From Thermus neutrinimicus (GTDB lineage: Bacteria; Deinococcota; Deinococci; Deinococcales; Thermaceae): a stretch of DNA of 64,000 nt. The position numbers and the translations under genes are program-made. Location of the stretch: positions 2,431 to 66,430 of the forward strand of contig NZ_JAKTNU010000005.1 in the NCBI RefSeq assembly GCF_022760955.1, in the 5' to 3' direction. How positions within the stretch are numbered: the stretch's first letter is position 1; each line of letters starts with the position of its first letter. This document shows positions 2,002 through 10,189 of this stretch, piece after piece. Under the pieces are notes generated by a model that was not told where the DNA came from, searched no databases, and worked only from the letters and a program-made list of their open reading frames with translations.

Positions 2002-3672
2002 ATGCTAAAGACCAAAAGGGAATACGAGCCCTGGTACTGGGCCAATGAGTGGACGAGGCTCTACATGAGCCGGGGGTACCTGCTCCCCGGGGTGACGGTG
2101 GAGGAGCGGGTGAGGGAGATCGCCCACCGGGCGGAGGCCCTGACCCGCATAGAGGGCTTCTCCCGCAAATTCCAGGAGTACATGGCCAGGGGCTGGTACT
2201 CCTTGGCCACCCCCATCTGGGCCAACTATGGCCTCAGGCGGGGCCTTCCCATCTCCTGCTACGGCACCTACGTGGAGGACGATACCGCCTCCATTCTCAA
2301 GGCGGTGGCCGAGATCGGCATGATGAGCAAGCAGGGCGGGGGAACCTCCGTCTACCTGGGCACCTTGCGCCCCCGGGGAGCCCCCATCCGGGACAATGGG
2401 GAGAGCAACGGTTCCTACGCCTTCGCCTCCCTCTTTGACCGGGTGATCGAGGTGTTCAACCAGGGCTCAACCCGGCGGGGCCAGTGCGCCGCCTACATCC
2501 CCATAGAGCACCCTGATTTTGAAGAGTGGCTGAAAATCCAACGGGAAGGAGGGGAGATCCAGTCCCTCTTCTGGGGGGTCTCCGTGGGGGATGCCTGGCT
2601 GGAGGAGGCCATCGCCGGGGACAGGGAGAAGCGGGAACGGTGGGCCAAGGTCCTCAAGAGCCGTGCGGAGGTGGGGATTCCCTACCTTTTCTTCCGGGAC
2701 AACGCCAACCGCCATGCCCCAGAGATCTTCAAGAAACTGGGGAAGATCATCCACGCCTCCAACCTCTGCACCGAGATCATGCTCCCCTCCGGCCCCGAGG
2801 AGAGCTTCGTCTGCTGCCTTTCCTCCTTAAACCTTCTCCACTTTGACGAGTGGAAGGACACGGATGCCGTGGAAACCCTCACCATCTTCCTGGACTCGGT
2901 GCTGGACGATTTCATTGAAAAGGCGGAGGGCATCCCCTACATGGAACGCGCCGTGCGCTTTGCCAAGCGGTATAGGGCCATCGGCATCGGAGTCCTGGGC
3001 TGGCACAGTTACCTGCAGTCCAAGGGGATCCCCCTGGAGAATCCCGAGGCCCTGTTCCTCAACAACCTCATCTTCAAGACCATCCGCGAGAAGGCGGAGG
3101 AGGCAAGCCGCTGGCTGAGAAAGCGCCACCCTGAGGACGAGCTGGCCCAGGTCATGGAAAGGCGAAACGCCACCCTTCTGGCCGTCGCCCCCACCAAGAG
3201 CAGCTCCTTCATCCTGGGGCAGGTTTCCCCCTCCATCGAGCCCTACACCAGCAACTACTACCTCAAGGACCTGCAAAAGGCCCGGGTGCCCTTCAAGAAC
3301 CCCTTTCTGGAAGAGCTGCTTCGGCAAAAGGGCAAGGACGAGGAAAGGGTGTGGCGGAGCATCCTGGAGAGGAACGGCTCCGTGCAGCACCTGGATTTCC
3401 TCTCGGACGAGGAGAAGGACGTTTTCAAGACCTTCGCCGAGGTGTCCCAGAAGACCCTCATCAACCTGGCCATCGGGCGGCAGAAGTACATCGACCAGGG
3501 GCAGTCCCTGAACCTGGTGATCCACCCTGAGGCCCCGCCCAAGGACGTGAACGAGCTCTACCTGCACGCCTGGCGAGGCGGCCTCAAGGCCCTCTACTAC
3601 CAGTTCAGCACGAGCACCGCCCAGGCCTATAGCCGCGACCTCCTCCTCTCCTGCCGGGCCTGCGAGGGCTAG
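2002..3672 (+). CDS. nrdA: Class I ribonucleotide reductase, alpha (catalytic) subunit, short form
   Basis: 556 residues; reduces ribonucleotides to deoxyribonucleotides with the R2 subunit encoded just upstream. Seen: the ISCYGTY cysteine, the N-x-C-x-E active-site motif (NLCTE) and the distal CCLSS cysteine, plus a C-terminal C-x2-C (CRACEG) that fits the swinging-arm cysteine pair. It is much shorter than the E. coli enzyme (about 760) because it lacks the N-terminal ATP-cone, so overall activity control by ATP/dATP is not expected from this polypeptide. Its stop codon overlaps the stop of the convergent aquaporin gene at a shared CTAG. Confidence 0.93.
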   Translation: MLKTKREYEPWYWANEWTRLYMSRGYLLPGVTVEERVREIAHRAEALTRIEGFSRKFQEYMARGWYSLATPIWANYGLRRGLPISCYGTYVEDDTASILKAVAEIGMMSKQGGGTSVYLGTLRPRGAPIRDNGESNGSYAFASLFDRVIEVFNQGSTRRGQCAAYIPIEHPDFEEWLKIQREGGEIQSLFWGVSVGDAWLEEAIAGDREKRERWAKVLKSRAEVGIPYLFFRDNANRHAPEIFKKLGKIIHASNLCTEIMLPSGPEESFVCCLSSLNLLHFDEWKDTDAVETLTIFLDSVLDDFIEKAEGIPYMERAVRFAKRYRAIGIGVLGWHSYLQSKGIPLENPEALFLNNLIFKTIREKAEEASRWLRKRHPEDELAQVMERRNATLLAVAPTKSSSFILGQVSPSIEPYTSNYYLKDLQKARVPFKNPFLEELLRQKGKDEERVWRSILERNGSVQHLDFLSDEEKDVFKTFAEVSQKTLINLAIGRQKYIDQGQSLNLVIHPEAPPKDVNELYLHAWRGGLKALYYQFSTSTAQAYSRDLLLSCRACEG

Positions 3673-4393
3673 CCCTTGAAAACCCCAAGGCGGTGGTAGA
3701 GGAGGGTGGCCCCCAGGGCTCCCAGAAGGGGGAAGAGGGCCGGGACCAGAAGATAGGGGCTAGCGGCTCCCTCTACCCCCAAAAGGCCCGCCAGAAGCCT
3801 GGGGGAAAGGTCCCGGGCAGGGTTGAGGGCAAAGCCGCCAGGCCCTCCCAGACCATAGCCCACCGCCGCCACGGTGAGGCCCAGAAAGAGGGGAAGAAGC
3901 CGGGTGTCCCGTGCGGCCACCAGGATGACGGCCATGATGGCGAAGGTGCCCAGGGCCTCGGCCACCGCCGGGCCGGTCCAGCCATAAAGGGCCTCGGGCG
4001 CGGTGCGCAGGAAGCCCGGTCCCGTGGAGAACACGTTGGGCATCCCTTGGGCAATAAGCCCCTCCCGGTAGGCCAGGAAGGCCCCTAAAGCGCCCAGGAA
4101 ACCCCCGGTAAATGCCCTATCAGGTAAAGGGGAACCAGGCGCCAGGGAAAGAGGCCAAAAGCCGCTAGGGCCAAGGTCACCGCCGGGTTCAAGTGAGCCC
4201 CGGAAAGGGGCCGGCTGGCCAGAACCCCCACCAGCACCGCCAGCCCCGATCCCAAGGCGATGGCGTCATAGCCGTAGGCACCCGGGGAGAGCCGGAGCTC
4301 CAGCAGCGCATCGGCCGCACTGCCCACCGTCAGAAGGACCGGGAGAAAGGTTCCAAGAAGCTCACCAATGAAAGCCTTTGCCACGCGCATCAC
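3669..4393 (-). pseudogene. Aquaporin / glycerol facilitator (MIP) gene with a frameshift
   Basis: Two adjacent minus-strand frames form one MIP channel. The first (4393 down to 4085) holds the first NPA motif (GAHLNPAVTLAL); the second (about 4125 down to 3669) holds the second (FALNPARDLSPR). The Asp after the second NPA-R, as in NPARD, is typical of glycerol facilitators. Around 4115-4122 the frame changes by one base: the first frame ends in an atypical tail (HLPGVSWAL, stop), whereas the other frame continues naturally as AFTGGFLGALGAFLAYREG. Restoring one base gives a normal channel of about 241 residues. It is either a real inactivating mutation or a sequencing error. An ATG start at 4393 (or 4390) has an aggaggt site upstream. 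Confidence 0.82.
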
Positions 4394-5387: not shown

Positions 5388-6293
5388 CTACGAGGTCCGG
5401 AAACGGCCGTTCAGGCCTTGGGGGAAGAACCCACCCATGCTGACGCCGGTGTTGCCGGTGAGGTAGACGATCCTAAGCACCTCGCTCACCGTGCGGCCAA
5501 AGGCCACCCCGTTGGCATCCGCGGGGACCAGGTTGGCCTTTCCCATCTTGGTGATCCCCTCGTCCTTACCCCCGCCCACCTGGGCCCTGAGGTTGCTGAT
5601 GGCCTGAACCACCTGCTCCACGGTGAGGTCTGGGGTCACCGGCTCATCCTTTCTCTGGTAGAGGAAAAGGCGGGTGGCCCCCGCATGGTAAGCCTCCACG
5701 GCCAGGATGCCGGCGGCAGGGTCCAGCACGTTGTTTCTATCGGTGATGAGGGGTGCCGCCCCCTTGTAGGCCGTCACCCCCACATCCTCGAAGATGAAGG
5801 CCCCATGCAGGAAGAAAAGCTCGTTGGCAAAGGGGTTAAAGTTGGTGATGGCCCCATTGCTGGCCAGCCGGCCAGCCTCGCGGAAGGCCTGGTCCAGGTC
5901 GATGACGGGCCTGGCTACAGCCGCGCTCCCCAGGGCTTGGCGCAGGAAGCGCACGTGGGCCAGCTCATCCTCGGCCAGCTCCTCGGCAAACTGCCTCACC
6001 GCCGGGCTCAGGCCCGGCACCGGCTGGGTGCCGTCGAAACCCTGGGGCAGGCGGATTTCCGCGTTGCCCCCCAGGTTGCGTATATCCCCGATGCGGCCCA
6101 CGGCGGCCAGGTAAAAGGCCGCCTCCAGGTACTCCAGGTTCAAGGCGAAGTTGAGGATGTCCACGTCCTGGTTAGGGCTTTGCCCCATGCCAGGGGAGCA
6201 GGCCACCAGGCCGCCCCCACCCATCACCAACCCCGCTCCTACCAAACCCGCGCGTTGCAAAGCCTCCCTACGGCTTAAAAGGGCCTTTTTCAT
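5388..6293 (-). CDS. Tat-exported ferritin-like lipoprotein (Ferritin_2 family)
   Basis: 301 residues. The N-terminus has a twin-arginine motif (SRREALQRAG), a hydrophobic stretch and a lipobox ending in LVAC, so it is probably a folded lipoprotein exported by Tat. The remainder matches the Ferritin_2 / desiccation-related PCC13-62 family: DILNFALNLEYLEAAFY, AEDELAHVRFLRQAL and VEAYHAGATR supply Glu and His residues for a possible di-metal site. Its catalytic role is not established. It is the last gene of an operon starting with an ECF sigma factor and is a distant paralogue of the gene at 6835-7461. Confidence 0.8.
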   Translation of the reverse strand: MKKALLSRREALQRAGLVGAGLVMGGGGLVACSPGMGQSPNQDVDILNFALNLEYLEAAFYLAAVGRIGDIRNLGGNAEIRLPQGFDGTQPVPGLSPAVRQFAEELAEDELAHVRFLRQALGSAAVARPVIDLDQAFREAGRLASNGAITNFNPFANELFFLHGAFIFEDVGVTAYKGAAPLITDRNNVLDPAAGILAVEAYHAGATRLFLYQRKDEPVTPDLTVEQVVQAISNLRAQVGGGKDEGITKMGKANLVPADANGVAFGRTVSEVLRIVYLTGNTGVSMGGFFPQGLNGRFRTS

Positions 6294-6319
6294 GGGATAT
6301 CTCCTCCCTTTCCCATCTC

Positions 6320-6826
6320 CTACCGCACTGGGATTTGCCCCCGTAGCTCCCCGGCACGGAAGGCGGTGGTGTGGATGTCCAGGTAGAGCTCTCCCCGGAA
6401 AAGCCGGGAGCGGTCCTCGAGGCTAAGCTCAATCCGGTCCACAAAGGTGGCGCTCCTCCCATCCGGTGCGGGGTTGACCCGCAGAGCCTGAATCAAGGGT
6501 CCGTTCTGTCCCCGGGGGCCCCGGTGGAGGTGAACGGCGCTGGTGAGCCGAGCGTTGAGGACAGGATCCTCCACCGGGTCCCGGGTGTAGTCGCGGAAGG
6601 GCCCCGCCAGGTTGGCCACCGCCCCCTGGAGCAGAAGGCTTGGCCCCTGCACCTCCACCCGTACCACCGCCAGGGCCGGGGTGTCCACGGGATTCGGCAC
6701 CACCTCCGCTCCCGTCAGGAGGACGGCCCGGACCAGGCCCCCCTGGGCCCGGGCCGAGTCCAGAAACACCGCCACCCAGCCTGCTCCCAGTAGACCGGCC
6801 AGGGTCAGCGCGTCCCTACGGTTCAC
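6320..6826 (-). CDS. Exported CHRD-domain protein
   Basis: 168 residues. The leader MNRRDALTLAGLLGAG reads as a twin-arginine signal with an A-x-A-type site near DSARAQG. The mature part matches the CHRD domain (first described in chordin): an opening VLLTGAEVVPNP, a central AVHLHRGPRGQNGP and a C-terminal LYLDIHTTAFRAGELRGQI. CHRD proteins are extracytoplasmic beta-sandwich proteins without a settled function. It sits between two ferritin-like genes with only a few bases on either side, so all three are probably made together. Confidence 0.85.
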   Translation of the reverse strand: MNRRDALTLAGLLGAGWVAVFLDSARAQGGLVRAVLLTGAEVVPNPVDTPALAVVRVEVQGPSLLLQGAVANLAGPFRDYTRDPVEDPVLNARLTSAVHLHRGPRGQNGPLIQALRVNPAPDGRSATFVDRIELSLEDRSRLFRGELYLDIHTTAFRAGELRGQIPVR

Positions 6827-6834
6827 CCTACCCC

Positions 6835-7461
6835 CTATTTGCGGATGAAGCCCTGAACCGCCTTGGTGGCTTCCTCCGGAGTGATGGCCTTGGCGAAGGC
6901 CCGGCCCACGGGGGTCTGGGGACCCTCTACCTTACCCCCTAGCTCAAGCACGGCGTCCCGGGCCAGGGCCAGGTGGGCCTCCTCGTTCATGGCGATGCTG
7001 GCCGCCGCTGAGAGGACCGCCTTGTTCTGGATAAGGGGAATGGCCCCCAGGTAGGCGCCGGTGAAGGCGGTCTCCAAGGCGATCAGGGTTTCCAGAACCC
7101 TAAGCCGGCTGGCGGCATCAAACCGCAGGTCCCCATAGGTGAACTGGGGCCGGGCCACCGGGGTGGCCTTGAAGGGCCCCGCTATGGTGTCCCTCAGGGC
7201 CTGGACGTGGGCCTCCTCGTGCTTGAGGGCCTCGGCCAGGTAGTCGCGGATCTCCCCGGGGAAGGGGACCATGAGGGCGCGGGTGTAGAAGTCGCTGGCC
7301 AGGTACTCCGCGGTGAGGGCCAGGTTGAGGATGTCCAGGTCCTCCACCCCCTTGGCCTGGGCCAGGGCCTGGCCCAGGAGCCCCTTGGCAAAGGCCGTGG
7401 AGAGCCCGGCCGCGGTCAACACCTTCACAAACTGCCTGCGCACCATGGTTTTCTCTTGCAT
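6835..7461 (-). CDS. Tat-exported ferritin-like protein (Ferritin_2 family)
   Basis: 208 residues from the first ATG; a second ATG at 7446 (MVRRQFVKVL) gives a more usual leader. A twin-arginine-type signal with an ALAQA cleavage region precedes a four-helix ferritin-like domain: DILNLALTAEYLASDFY, LKHEEAHVQALRDTI, ALETAFTGAY and NEEAHLALARDAV give the repeated E and E-x2-H ligands expected of a di-metal carboxylate centre. It lies 71 bases after the anti-sigma gene. A role in oxidative or metal stress is inferred from the fold and the sigma factor. Confidence 0.82.
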   Translation of the reverse strand: MQEKTMVRRQFVKVLTAAGLSTAFAKGLLGQALAQAKGVEDLDILNLALTAEYLASDFYTRALMVPFPGEIRDYLAEALKHEEAHVQALRDTIAGPFKATPVARPQFTYGDLRFDAASRLRVLETLIALETAFTGAYLGAIPLIQNKAVLSAAASIAMNEEAHLALARDAVLELGGKVEGPQTPVGRAFAKAITPEEATKAVQGFIRK

Positions 7462-7532
7462 AACCTCACCTCCCGTGAGAGGGCTCCTCTGCCCCCTCGC
7501 TCTCCCCTTCGCAAGGAGGTGGGGTTTTGGAT

Positions 7533-8150
7533 TTAGCGGGGAAGACCGAACAGGGTGGTGGGCTTGGGGCTTCCCCCAGGGGGCTCCAGGGAAACCGCTA
7601 TGGCGAGGGCTTCTGGTGGTAGGCGAAGGCTCTTTAGGGGCAGACGGAAGGTGGATAGGGGCATGGGGTCGCCTCCACCCAGTCCCCAGGCTTGGAACAC
7701 CTTTCCCCTGGGGCTGGACCGGTTCAACAGGACCAGGGCGGTCCGGTCAGCCCTTAGGATCACCCGGCCCACCACCTCCCCTTGGGGGCTCATCAGGGTA
7801 AGGACCTGGGTGGTGGGCTCCCGCAGGGCCAAGAGCCAGCCTCCCCCCAGGAAGGCCCCATACCCCAGGGCCAGCAGGAGGAGGACCGCCGCCGCCCGCC
7901 CCACCCAGCCCCAGGGTGAGGGGCGCCGGAGGGCGCGGATGCGGGCCATCACCTTGGCCTCGAGGCCCGGGGGAATGGGGGCAGGAGGAACCCCCTCCGC
8001 CAGCTGGGAAGCGGCCTCCATCAAGGCCTTGGCCTCGGCCCAAAGCTCGGGGTAACGGGACAGGGCCTCCTCCACCCGGGAGCGCTCCTCCGGGGAGAGG
8101 GCACCCAAGGCGTAGAGGGGCAGGAGGTCGCGCACCTCCTCAGGGCTCAC
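7533..8150 (-). CDS. Anti-sigma factor, RskA-like, membrane-anchored
   Basis: 205 residues: a short N-terminal helical domain (SPEEVRDLLPLYALGALSPEE) typical of RskA-type anti-sigma factors, one transmembrane helix around residues 85-105 (AAAVLLLLALGYGAFLGGGW) and an extracytoplasmic RskA C-terminal domain (FQAWGLGGGDPMPLSTF). The zinc-binding H-x3-C-x2-C of ZAS-type factors is absent. It overlaps the upstream sigma factor gene by 11 bases, the standard arrangement for a cognate pair. Confidence 0.85.
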   Translation of the reverse strand: MSPEEVRDLLPLYALGALSPEERSRVEEALSRYPELWAEAKALMEAASQLAEGVPPAPIPPGLEAKVMARIRALRRPSPWGWVGRAAAVLLLLALGYGAFLGGGWLLALREPTTQVLTLMSPQGEVVGRVILRADRTALVLLNRSSPRGKVFQAWGLGGGDPMPLSTFRLPLKSLRLPPEALAIAVSLEPPGGSPKPTTLFGLPR

Positions 8151-8697
8151 GGAGCACCTCCTTGAGGCGCAGCAGGGCGCGCCTAACCCGGGTCTTTAGG
8201 GTGCCCAGGGGGATCCCCAAAAGCCTCGCGGCCTCCTGGTGGGAGTGGCCTTGGTAGTAGAGGATCTGGATCACCTCCTGCTCCTCTGGGTCCAGGTGCC
8301 TTAGGGCCCCTTGGAGACGGATACGGTCCAGATGGCCCTCCTCGTCCAGGCCGTCCCCAGGCAGGTCGAAGGCCTCCTCCGCCTCCTCCCCCTGGGGCTC
8401 CAGGGGCTTGGGGCGGGCCTCGAGGCGGCGGACGAAGTCCACGGCGGTGTGGTGACCAACCGCCAGGAGCCAGGCCCGGGCCGAGGCCCGCCGGGGGTCA
8501 AACTGGCGGGCGTTTTTCCAAACCCTGACAAAGGCCTCCTGCACCACATCCTCCTGGGCATTGGCGTCTAGGCCCATCCTGCGGGCCAGGCCCAAAAAGG
8601 CCCCCGCGTAGCGCCGGAAGAGCCACCGGAGGGCCTCCTCCTCGCCCCTAGCCACCAGGGCTAGGAGGGCTTCGTCGGAAAGGCCCTCGAGGCTCAT
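8140..8697 (-). CDS. RNA polymerase ECF sigma factor
   Basis: 185 residues with sigma region 2 (LFRRYAGAFLGLARR, DVVQEAFVRVWKNA, ARAWLLAVGHHTAVDFVRR) and region 4 (LDPEEQEVIQILYYQGHSHQEAARLLGIPLGTLKTRVRRAL). It is an ECF19/SigK-like factor judged by its RskA-type partner. It should direct RNA polymerase to the downstream exported ferritin/CHRD genes when the anti-sigma factor is disabled. The ATG at 8697 has a gggcggagg site just upstream. Confidence 0.9.
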   Translation of the reverse strand: MSLEGLSDEALLALVARGEEEALRWLFRRYAGAFLGLARRMGLDANAQEDVVQEAFVRVWKNARQFDPRRASARAWLLAVGHHTAVDFVRRLEARPKPLEPQGEEAEEAFDLPGDGLDEEGHLDRIRLQGALRHLDPEEQEVIQILYYQGHSHQEAARLLGIPLGTLKTRVRRALLRLKEVLREP

Positions 8698-8715
8698 CCT
8701 CCGCCCATCCTACCC

Positions 8716-8740
8716 TACGCACACCCCCTGGGGGTTGGTT
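8716..8740 (-). promoter_or_regulatory. Possible ECF-type autoregulated promoter
   Basis: On the minus strand an AACC element (8737-8740) is followed after 17 bases by CGTA (8716-8719), then the sigma factor gene. ECF sigma factors usually recognise AAC-containing -35 and CGT-containing -10 motifs, so this could be an autoregulated promoter. With one instance in the window this remains weak. Confidence 0.28.
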
Positions 8741-9184
8741 TTAGCGCCCTTCCCGAAGCCAGCTGGCTCTAGAATACCATTCACTTCCTGCTCTCAAGAG
8801 CTCCTTGACCTTCTGCAAAGCTCTATCCCGGCCATCCCGGCTTCCTAGTCGGGCTCCGGCGAACACCCTTAGGCCCTGTCTCCCTCCTGGAGGCCCGCAG
8901 CCGGTTCCACGGCCCACCCCCAGGGGAGGAGGTCCGCTACACCTTCCCGGTCCTCGCCCCCCCAGGACCCCAGGCACTACGTGCGCCTGGCCAGCCGGAT
9001 GGGGTACCGGAGGAGAGGGCACCTGGACTATCCCTCCCATGCGACCCTAGGGGATCCTCGCCTAACGCCAGGCACCCATTCCTGCGGCGTGGGGCCAGAC
9101 CTTGGTCCACCGCCATTTCCAAGCCACCCCCCTTCCCTACCCGAGATCGTCGCCCCACCTAAGATGCCCTCAGGAACCCCGCCC
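8741..9184. other. Gene-free stretch, probably decayed coding sequence
   Basis: No intact gene. On the plus strand, open but frameshifted segments can be read: LEARSRFHGPPPGEEVRYTF near 8890-8950 and, one frame over, RHYVRLASRMGYRRRG near 8968-9020. They look more like worn coding sequence than random DNA, but the family was not recognised. No cobalamin riboswitch core was found although cobalamin genes follow. Confidence 0.35.
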
Positions 9185-9196: not shown

Positions 9197-10189
9197 ATGT
9201 TGGACGACGTCTTGAAGCCCATCCATGGCGGTCCCGACGGGGGGCCTGAGCCCCTTTACGACTTCTCCACCAACGCCAACGCCCTGGGCCCCAACCCCGT
9301 GATCCTGGAGTACCTGGAGGCGAAGGACCCAAGCCGCTACCCCGACCCCCTTTACCGGAACCTTCGGCAAATGCTGGCGGAAGCCCACGGGGTCACCATG
9401 GAACAGGTGGCGGTGGGCACGGGCAGCAGCGAGCTCATCCACCGCCTGGCCCGCTGGAACTACCTAAGGGGCCCCATCCTCCTCCTGAAGCCCACCTTCA
9501 GCGAGTACGCCCGGGCCGCCAGGGCCCTGGACCTACCCCTTTGGGAGGCGGAAACCCCGGAGGACTTCCTAAGGCTTCTTCCGCGAAGCTCCCTGGCCTT
9601 TCTTTGCGTGCCCAACAACCCCACGGGGGAGGTTTACCCCTTTTTGGAGGAAGCGGCCGAAAGGGCGGGCGGAGCCTTGGTCCTGGACCTGGCCTATTAT
9701 CCCCTCCTGGAGGGCCCTCCTCCCCTGCCCCAGGAAGCTTGGCTCCTCTTTGGCCCCAACAAGGCCCATGGCCTTACGGGGGTGCGGGCCGGGTACCTGG
9801 TAGCCCCCTTGGACCTCACCTATTTCCAGCACCTGGCCCCTTCCTGGCCGGTTTCCGTGTACGGGGAAGCCCTCCTGGAAGGCCACCTAGACCCCAGGGC
9901 CCAGGCGTGGCTGGAAAAGAGCAAAAGGGAGCTCCAAAGGCTTAGGCGCCTTCTGGCCCAGGGCCTGAGGGGCCTGGGCCTCGAGGTGCGGGAAAGCCCC
10001 GCCAACTTCCTCCTGGTGCGGGTGGGTCGGGCCACGGAGGTGGCAAGAGCCCTCCGGGAAGAGGGCATCCGGGTGCGGGACGCCACCAGCTTTGGCCTAG
10101 GGGAGTGGCTCAGGCTTTCCGCCCAAAGGGAGGAGGCCATCCAGGCCCTTTTGCAAGCCCTAAAGGAGATCTTGGCCCGGGTACACTGA
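9197..10189 (+). CDS. CobD/CobC-type class I aminotransferase, copy 1 (threonine-phosphate decarboxylase-like)
   Basis: 330 residues, fold type I PLP enzyme related to histidinol-phosphate aminotransferase. The Schiff-base Lys is K189 in GPNKAHGLTGVRAGY; substrate/PLP features include DFSTNANALGPNP, GTGSSELIHR, VPNNPTGEVYPF and the C-terminal RESPANFLLVR. Because a CobQ-CobU fusion and other late B12 genes follow, its likely job is making (R)-1-amino-2-propanol O-2-phosphate from L-threonine phosphate for CbiB. HisC activity cannot be excluded by sequence alone. A close paralogue lies at 45642-46634. Confidence 0.82.
   Translation: MLDDVLKPIHGGPDGGPEPLYDFSTNANALGPNPVILEYLEAKDPSRYPDPLYRNLRQMLAEAHGVTMEQVAVGTGSSELIHRLARWNYLRGPILLLKPTFSEYARAARALDLPLWEAETPEDFLRLLPRSSLAFLCVPNNPTGEVYPFLEEAAERAGGALVLDLAYYPLLEGPPPLPQEAWLLFGPNKAHGLTGVRAGYLVAPLDLTYFQHLAPSWPVSVYGEALLEGHLDPRAQAWLEKSKRELQRLRRLLAQGLRGLGLEVRESPANFLLVRVGRATEVARALREEGIRVRDATSFGLGEWLRLSAQREEAIQALLQALKEILARVH

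Follow-up and report, generated by a model that had tools for sequence, protein, structure and literature searches.

In a window of 64,000 nucleotides of the Thermus neutrinimicus genome (contig NZ_JAKTNU010000005.1; host genome G000, 2.06 Mb in 42 contigs), five genes of the minus strand encode an extracytoplasmic function (ECF) sigma factor, an RskA-type anti-sigma factor and three proteins with export leaders, hereafter called the effectors. The sigma factor gene (8140..8697, 185 aa), which is sigE of Thermus, overlaps the anti-sigma factor gene (7533..8150) by 11 bases. After a gap of 71 bases comes the gene of a first ferritin-like protein of the Ferritin_2 family (protein 1; 6835..7461, 208 aa), itself separated by 8 bases from the gene of a CHRD protein (6320..6826, 168 aa). 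A second Ferritin_2 gene (protein 2; 5388..6293, 301 aa) follows 26 bases further on. A sequence-only reading of the window had already described these genes, with their coordinates and head-to-tail spacing, and our analysis bore it out.

When compared with Pfam, the sigma protein matched both region 2 (Sigma70_r2, 5e-17) and region 4 (r4_2, 8e-13). Together with the small size of the protein and a score of 321 bits against the NCBIfam sigma E model (PRK13919, 2.5e-96; cut-off 226), these matches identify it as an ECF sigma factor of the SigE type. The neighbouring protein was assigned to the NCBIfam anti-sigma E family (PRK13920, 2.7e-70). Its RskA_C (1e-13) and zf-HC2 matches were above the Pfam cut-offs, RskA_N was below, and one hydrophobic stretch was read from the sequence. 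An RskA_C domain, an N-terminal anti-sigma domain and a gene adjoining that of the sigma factor characterize it as an RskA-type anti-sigma factor, so the identity first proposed for the pair was retained. The host genome gave two Sigma70 region-2 matches in all, this sigma factor being one of them; apart from SigE, no alternative sigma factor of that type was thus found.

Because no cysteine is conserved, we rejected the possibility that the sigma/anti-sigma pair senses redox state through thiols or zinc. The HxxxCxxC zinc motif of ZAS anti-sigma factors occurs in none of 30 anti-sigma orthologues, 29 of which have no Cys at all, and the anti-sigma factor of the window has neither Cys nor zinc motif. 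As for a redox pair of cysteines like that of SigK, the sigma factor of the window is devoid of Cys, and so are 20 of the 30 sigma orthologues.

Upstream of sigE, a putative ECF-type promoter, AAACCAAC-N14-CGTAGGGTA, is located on the minus strand at 8711..8741 and is conserved 5' of sigE in Thermaceae. Motif scans revealed a second one, AATCCAAA-N14-CGAAGGGGA, at 7503..7533 on the same strand, 5' of the protein 1 gene; it starts with the final base of the stop codon of the anti-sigma gene. In general form, the conserved element 5' of sigE consists of two blocks, AAACCAAA and CGTATGGTA, separated by 13-14 bases, and the related element 5' of the first ferritin gene reads AATCCAAA-N14-CGTA or CGAA. 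The mycobacterial SigK promoter consensus is approximately CCATCC-N16/17-CCGAAT, and the likeness is taken as a lead only.

A two-block matrix was trained on 31 sigE upstream regions alone, after which all other upstream regions were scored, P values being derived from 4000 windows drawn at random from these loci. Of 24 Thermaceae loci, 22 gave a match upstream of the first ferritin gene, each with P <=0.0092. The two misses, L106 and L111, belong to two Meiothermus species (genomes G010 and G007, respectively) without a sigE orthologue. For the second ferritin gene, the element was present in 7/7 loci where this gene stands apart from the CHRD gene and in 0/9 where it lies behind it; four loci in which the gene is represented by fragments only or is cut by a contig end (L011, L079, L087, L091) were left out of this count. 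Such a pattern (22/24, 7/7, 0/9) indicates that each transcription unit has its own element, whatever the gene order. Four sigE upstream regions (L099, L102, L103, L105) fitted the matrix poorly.

When the host genome was scanned with the pattern, the two elements of this operon, 5' of sigE and of the first ferritin gene, were the only sites with a single mismatch. With up to three mismatches, 43 matches were obtained versus 108 in the reversed control; a wider regulon in this genome is therefore unsupported, the matches beyond the operon being below that control. A stricter pattern applied to 50 Thermaceae genomes gave 48 matches versus 44 in the control, and 19 of the 48 were situated, by position, at Ferritin_2 loci. 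The idea of a sigma factor devoted to its effectors thus gained strength, since the sigE element recurs 5' of the effectors, is lost where sigE is missing and has its best matches in the host genome within this very operon. Control of the effectors by SigE is well supported at the level of sequence, and SigE itself very probably reads the elements.

It could be objected that the element is used by SigA or another regulator and that sigE merely adjoins genes outside its control. To our eye, a TAtggT-like sequence can also be recognized in the -10 part, and G007 and G010 keep their effectors without sigE. However, the spacing of the element is ECF-like, the first ferritin gene has lost it in exactly these two genomes, and in other Deinococci it is found 5' of related sigma or anti-sigma genes as well. 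We consider this explanation very unlikely.

In five loci (L012, L014, L015, L087, L089), a joint matrix scan also placed the element 5' of the gene that diverges from the first ferritin gene. In L091, an element site is present opposite the first ferritin gene, where no frame of 100 aa was called. By Pfam, the divergent gene is AhpC/TSA-like in L012 and L014; in the other element-bearing loci it was taken as AhpC/TSA from the N-termini or the annotation. A strong element (score 25.6) stands in L091 at position 523 of the minus strand, 5' of a small exported-looking protein of 153 aa divergent from sigE; the gene that diverges from sigE in T. thermophilus HB8 and HB27 is annotated DUF5602.

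The five-gene order is intact in this genome (L076), in L078 and in six Meiothermus-group loci (L079, L081, L083, L084, L085, L090), and it recurs partly elsewhere, so that it cannot be ascribed to chance. The last gene is missing from the block in L080, L082 and L086. Other genes separate the anti-sigma and first ferritin genes in L012, L015, L089 and L091, as well as in L014 and L087, a group that comprises T. thermophilus HB27 and loci like it; HB27, a laboratory strain, has sigE, anti-sigE and the two ferritin-like genes. In genome G017 (L100, L101), sigE contains an in-frame stop codon, a search next to it revealed no anti-sigma gene, and the effectors lie about 20 kb away; the sigE promoter shows CCTA instead of CGTA, while the distant effector operon retains its element. 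Over 50 Thermaceae genomes, 24 have both a sigE orthologue and Ferritin_2, 3 have sigE only, 4 Ferritin_2 only and 19 neither (Fisher 4e-7, kinship ignored). Within Thermus, the corresponding numbers are 7, 0, 2 and 18 (Fisher 4e-5, kinship likewise ignored), and the two cases of Ferritin_2 only are weak partial matches.

In a quick sigE tree, SigE of this Thermus lineage (L076-L078) groups with Meiothermus (L081, L083, L084) with a support of 0.94, apart from T. thermophilus. Protein 1, which is 96% identical to its T. tenuipuniceus counterpart, shares about 80% identity with Meiothermus and about 55-58% with most other Thermus. Both patterns make a lateral transfer of the block likely.

Outside Thermaceae, no Ferritin_2 gene was found beside a sigE-like gene in 20 stretches. 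The sequence CATCC[A/G]A[A/T/C]-N13/14-[C/T]GTA was present at most 250 bases 5' of 13 of 21 Ferritin_2 genes in other families of Deinococci, a count that includes one upstream region of only 149 bases (L167). In the controls it occurred before 3/216 other long frames and 1/21 times on the opposite strand, and shuffles gave a mean of 0.012. In L191-L194 and L196, a closely similar element lies 5' of sigma or anti-sigma genes, and sigma, anti-sigma and CHRD genes are clustered in L188-L190.

Furthermore, a whole-genome scan of eight of these other Deinococci gave 56 matches versus 18 in the reversed control. Thirty of the matches were inspected, and Pfam was run on nine genes behind them. It identified CHRD (L203), DUF7282 plus CHRD (L214), DUF4331 (L218, L227), DUF4397 (L204) and a sigma factor (L210), and the genes in L209, L211 and L230 looked unrelated or received no assignment. 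Several other inspected matches precede Ferritin_2 genes, and many of the remainder fall inside coding frames and are chance-like. The DUF4397, DUF4331 and DUF7282 proteins behind the promoter-like element look exported.

All three effectors had been credited with twin-arginine leaders, and the arginines proved to be conserved in 22/22 orthologues of protein 1 and in 16/16 each of the CHRD protein and protein 2. TatC is encoded in the host genome, and export of the effectors by the Tat pathway is supported at the sequence level only. The leader of protein 1 has an AQA cleavage site. That of protein 2 ends in the lipobox-like motif LVAC, with the Cys found in 16/16, so that protein 2 is probably a lipoprotein; neither the protein 1 nor the CHRD leader has a lipobox Cys. 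A ferritin-like protein of the D. radiodurans MP1 plasmid (54% identical), which we take to be DRB0118, has an annotated start that is internal (L200 4866-5765): the in-frame upstream stretch TRRRFLGMAGA and the annotated MGAGAVLAGCA together make up a Tat lipoprotein leader.

Both ferritin-like proteins belong to Ferritin_2 (PF13668) with E values of 8e-26 and 1e-42 (91.3 and 145.7 bits for a curated cut-off of 24.7), and both retain full two-metal ligand sets: E52, E82xxH85, E130 and E160xxH163 in protein 1 (22/22), and E54, E110xxH113, E169 and E200xxH203 in protein 2 (16/16). In T. thermophilus HB8, a 'hypothetical protein' encoded behind the first ferritin gene (L011 7913-8098) matches residues 56-104 of protein 2 and represents a remnant of it. 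By profile, the closest solved relative of protein 1 is the tardigrade RvFeMP-1 (E 3e-4); a 'bacterioferritin' entry (9viw) was matched over a shorter stretch. A structure model of protein 1, computed as a monomer only with a predicted local distance difference test (pLDDT) score of 73.8, was superimposed on RvFeMP-1 with Z 20.4 and a root mean square deviation (rmsd) of 2.3 over 156 aligned residues, other ferritin-like folds reaching Z <=16.4.

This likeness raises the question of whether the exported effectors act as hydrolases of metabolites or phosphoesters, induced to clean up damaged phosphorylated compounds, rather than as an antioxidant set. According to the report on RvFeMP-1, this protein has a two-metal site and a solved structure, and phosphatase activity was described for it as well as for RvFeMP-2 and DRB0118 (PMC11616004). 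We mapped the ligands through the profile alignment to 8kce, the number in the paper being the chain index + 3. The M1 ligands E51, E90, H93 and D162 of RvFeMP-1 correspond to E52, E82, H85 and E160 of protein 1, invariant in 22/22, so that the M1 site is shared. The M2 residue Asp135, reported to be needed for RvFeMP-1 activity, is replaced by Phe133; DRB0118 also lacks the Asp, having Gly there, and is yet active (PMC11616004). In addition, the activities in that report are low, cytoplasmic nucleotide pools are out of reach for exported proteins, and the AhpC/TSA partners point to oxidants. A hydrolase role is rather improbable on this evidence.

The CHRD protein was recognized by Pfam (2e-19). 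Its structure model (pLDDT 70) matched Cu,Zn superoxide dismutase (SOD) best, with E 7e-3 in Foldseek and, in the fold comparison, Z 8.8 and rmsd 3.1 over 105 aligned residues. Each of the 50 fold matches listed was a Cu,Zn SOD entry (a SOD/chaperone complex in one case), and the model thus predicts a SOD-like barrel. All 16 Thermaceae CHRD proteins share H99-x-H101 and H152, which are also present, by position, in 10/10 further domains of the class. Both the order of the strands and a MAFFT alignment with four Sod_Cu domains match these three histidines to the HxH of SOD strand 4 and the His ending strand 7. Those SOD residues are copper ligands. A true Cu,Zn SOD was rejected by Pfam and by the ligand set, in which His is found at three positions only: none of the 16 Thermaceae CHRD proteins matched Sod_Cu at E up to 10. 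No Sod_Cu gene was detected by Pfam in the host genome. Copper binding by the CHRD protein is conceivable, if somewhat doubtful. Elsewhere in Deinococci, the CHRD protein of L203 (1040-1465, minus strand) combines a CHRD match (2.5e-7) with a weak Sod_Cu match (0.0058, below the cut-off) and a SOD-like C-terminal end, GGIACGNV; it is a possible bridge between the two families.

From the same ligands it could be proposed that the main task of the set is to sense or store iron, manganese or copper outside the cytoplasm and that SigE answers metal excess. The invariant E, ExxH, E, ExxH sets, the three histidines of the CHRD protein and the fact that iron/hemin transporters are encoded close to sigE in HB8 and T. 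aquaticus agree with it. However, the neighbours of sigE vary between species, and no metal-responsive element was seen, although no test was aimed at one. We regard this proposal as unlikely.

The explanation that we favour, and hold to be reasonably likely, is a SigK-like ECF regulon of minimal size that exports folded metalloproteins, probably against oxidant or metal stress outside the cytoplasm. In this scheme, the RskA-type anti-sigma factor would hold SigE at the membrane. An extracytoplasmic signal would then free SigE, probably through proteolysis of the anti-sigma factor (the two proteins have neither redox cysteines nor a zinc finger); we think it rather probable that signal and release are of this kind. 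Freed SigE would read AAACC-N17-CGTA to transcribe its own operon and, to transcribe the effectors, the second promoter of the same type, ATCCAAA-N14-CGAA, 5' of the first ferritin gene. The effectors would fold and probably load metal in the cytoplasm before leaving via Tat. The exported set would consist of two ferritin-like proteins with two-metal sites, one soluble and the other lipid-anchored, and of a CHRD protein with the SOD fold, maybe binding copper by its three histidines. The most likely task of this set outside the cytoplasm would be to remove or buffer oxidants and redox metals, and for a role of the set in dealing with oxidants or redox metal we see about even chances.

Several observations speak against this scheme or narrow it. 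The related Thermaceae loci are not independent tests, effectors persist without sigE in G007 and G010, and the element might be read by another regulator. In other families of Deinococci, 8 of the 21 Ferritin_2 genes have no element, and the sigma factors fall outside the Thermaceae SigE clade in the quick tree: they are related, not strict orthologues, so that this is a promoter type shared by related sigma factors, not proof of one inherited regulon. A link via DRB0118, a relative with a desiccation phenotype, was rejected because the element is missing upstream of its gene. With respect to the proteins, Phe133 is invariant (22/22) at the position of Asp135 in protein 1. For the CHRD protein, Z 8.8 is near the level that the tool calls common, the hhalign probability against the four Sod_Cu domains is 3.5% (not significant), and the zinc ligands and bridging histidine of Cu,Zn SOD are lacking.

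As regards the stress, oxidants or drying had been suggested at first. The element-bearing AhpC/TSA genes favour oxidants; no computed result points to drying, and DRB0118 is without the element. On the whole, what the sequence-only reading observed was right and its claim of control was reinforced, whereas its interpretation is partly supported.

A more far-reaching view, which we put forward only tentatively, is that across Deinococci RskA-controlled ECF sigma factors would read CATCC/ATCC-N17-(C/T)GTA and thereby direct dedicated exported proteins, whose families (Ferritin_2, CHRD, DUF4331, DUF4397, DUF7282) are of unclear function. In Thermus these might form a chain of Tat-exported metalloenzymes, with a zinc-free three-histidine copper protein of SOD fold for superoxide and soluble and lipid-anchored two-metal ferritin-like proteins for peroxide or released metal.

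No description of this regulon was found in the open-licence literature searched. Judged by that literature, a regulon dedicated in this way seems to be new, as do its promoter and its counterpart across Deinococci; the sigma pair, known as SigE/anti-SigE of T. thermophilus, and the protein families were already described, and their link is what is new. Both Ferritin_2 and CHRD are widespread, and few functions have been assigned to either family. Their description as lacking clear functions nevertheless needs an update, as RvFeMP-1 and DRB0118 are reported to be metabolite phosphatases (PMC11616004) and human CHRD domains to have the SOD fold (PMC13382577). The promoter signature ties both families to one membrane-controlled sigma factor that can be switched genetically, by anti-sigma deletion in T. 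thermophilus, which offers a direct way to learn what the effectors do. As the one alternative sigma factor found in the genome appears to serve almost only these proteins, what they counter must matter outside the cell membrane. The recurring pairing of sigma factor and effectors in related bacteria makes the role of these poorly understood families testable, and the regulon provides a parallel to that of SigK outside mycobacteria.

Elsewhere in the window, an aquaporin-like MIP gene (3669-4393, minus strand) appears to be split into two frames, 3669-4043 and 4085-4393, as by a frameshift, and Pfam was run on the first part only. Two similar aminotransferase-like (CobC-like) proteins also seem to be encoded, at 9197-10189 and at about 45640 on the plus strand; the latter was noticed behind a weak promoter match.

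Among the closest known systems is the pair of T. thermophilus HB8, published as sigE and TTHB212, the latter being anti-SigE (Sakamoto 2008, Gene 423:153). The pair of the window scores above the cut-offs of the NCBIfam sigma E and anti-sigma E models, the sigma factors are 72% identical, and the HB8 pair, carried by pTT27, is likewise followed by the first Ferritin_2 gene. In contrast, the HB8 locus has no CHRD gene and only a fragment of the second ferritin gene. SigK-RskA of M. tuberculosis and M. bovis is reported to govern a very small regulon of two loci, with the secreted MPB70 and the lipid-anchored MPB83 as main targets (PMC7509140, PMC10540498). An RskA-type anti-sigma factor, a very small target set and a pair of secreted and lipid-anchored homologues are common to both systems, whereas the SigK targets are FAS1 proteins and the SigK cysteines 133 and 183 are missing in Thermus SigE.

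Among the effectors, protein 1 shares the Ferritin_2 family and the conserved M1 site with RvFeMP-1 (RvY_06210, PDB 8KCE) and DRB0118, as these are described (PMC11616004), and differs by Phe133 in place of Asp135, by its Tat leader and by an operon containing a sigma factor. Compared with Cu,Zn SOD, the Thermus CHRD protein is without zinc ligands, bridging His and long loops. Compared with human chordin, whose CHRD domains have been crystallized and reported as SOD-like Greek-key barrels with the metal ligands lost (PMC13382577), it likewise has SOD as the best fold match of its model, but keeps three histidines.

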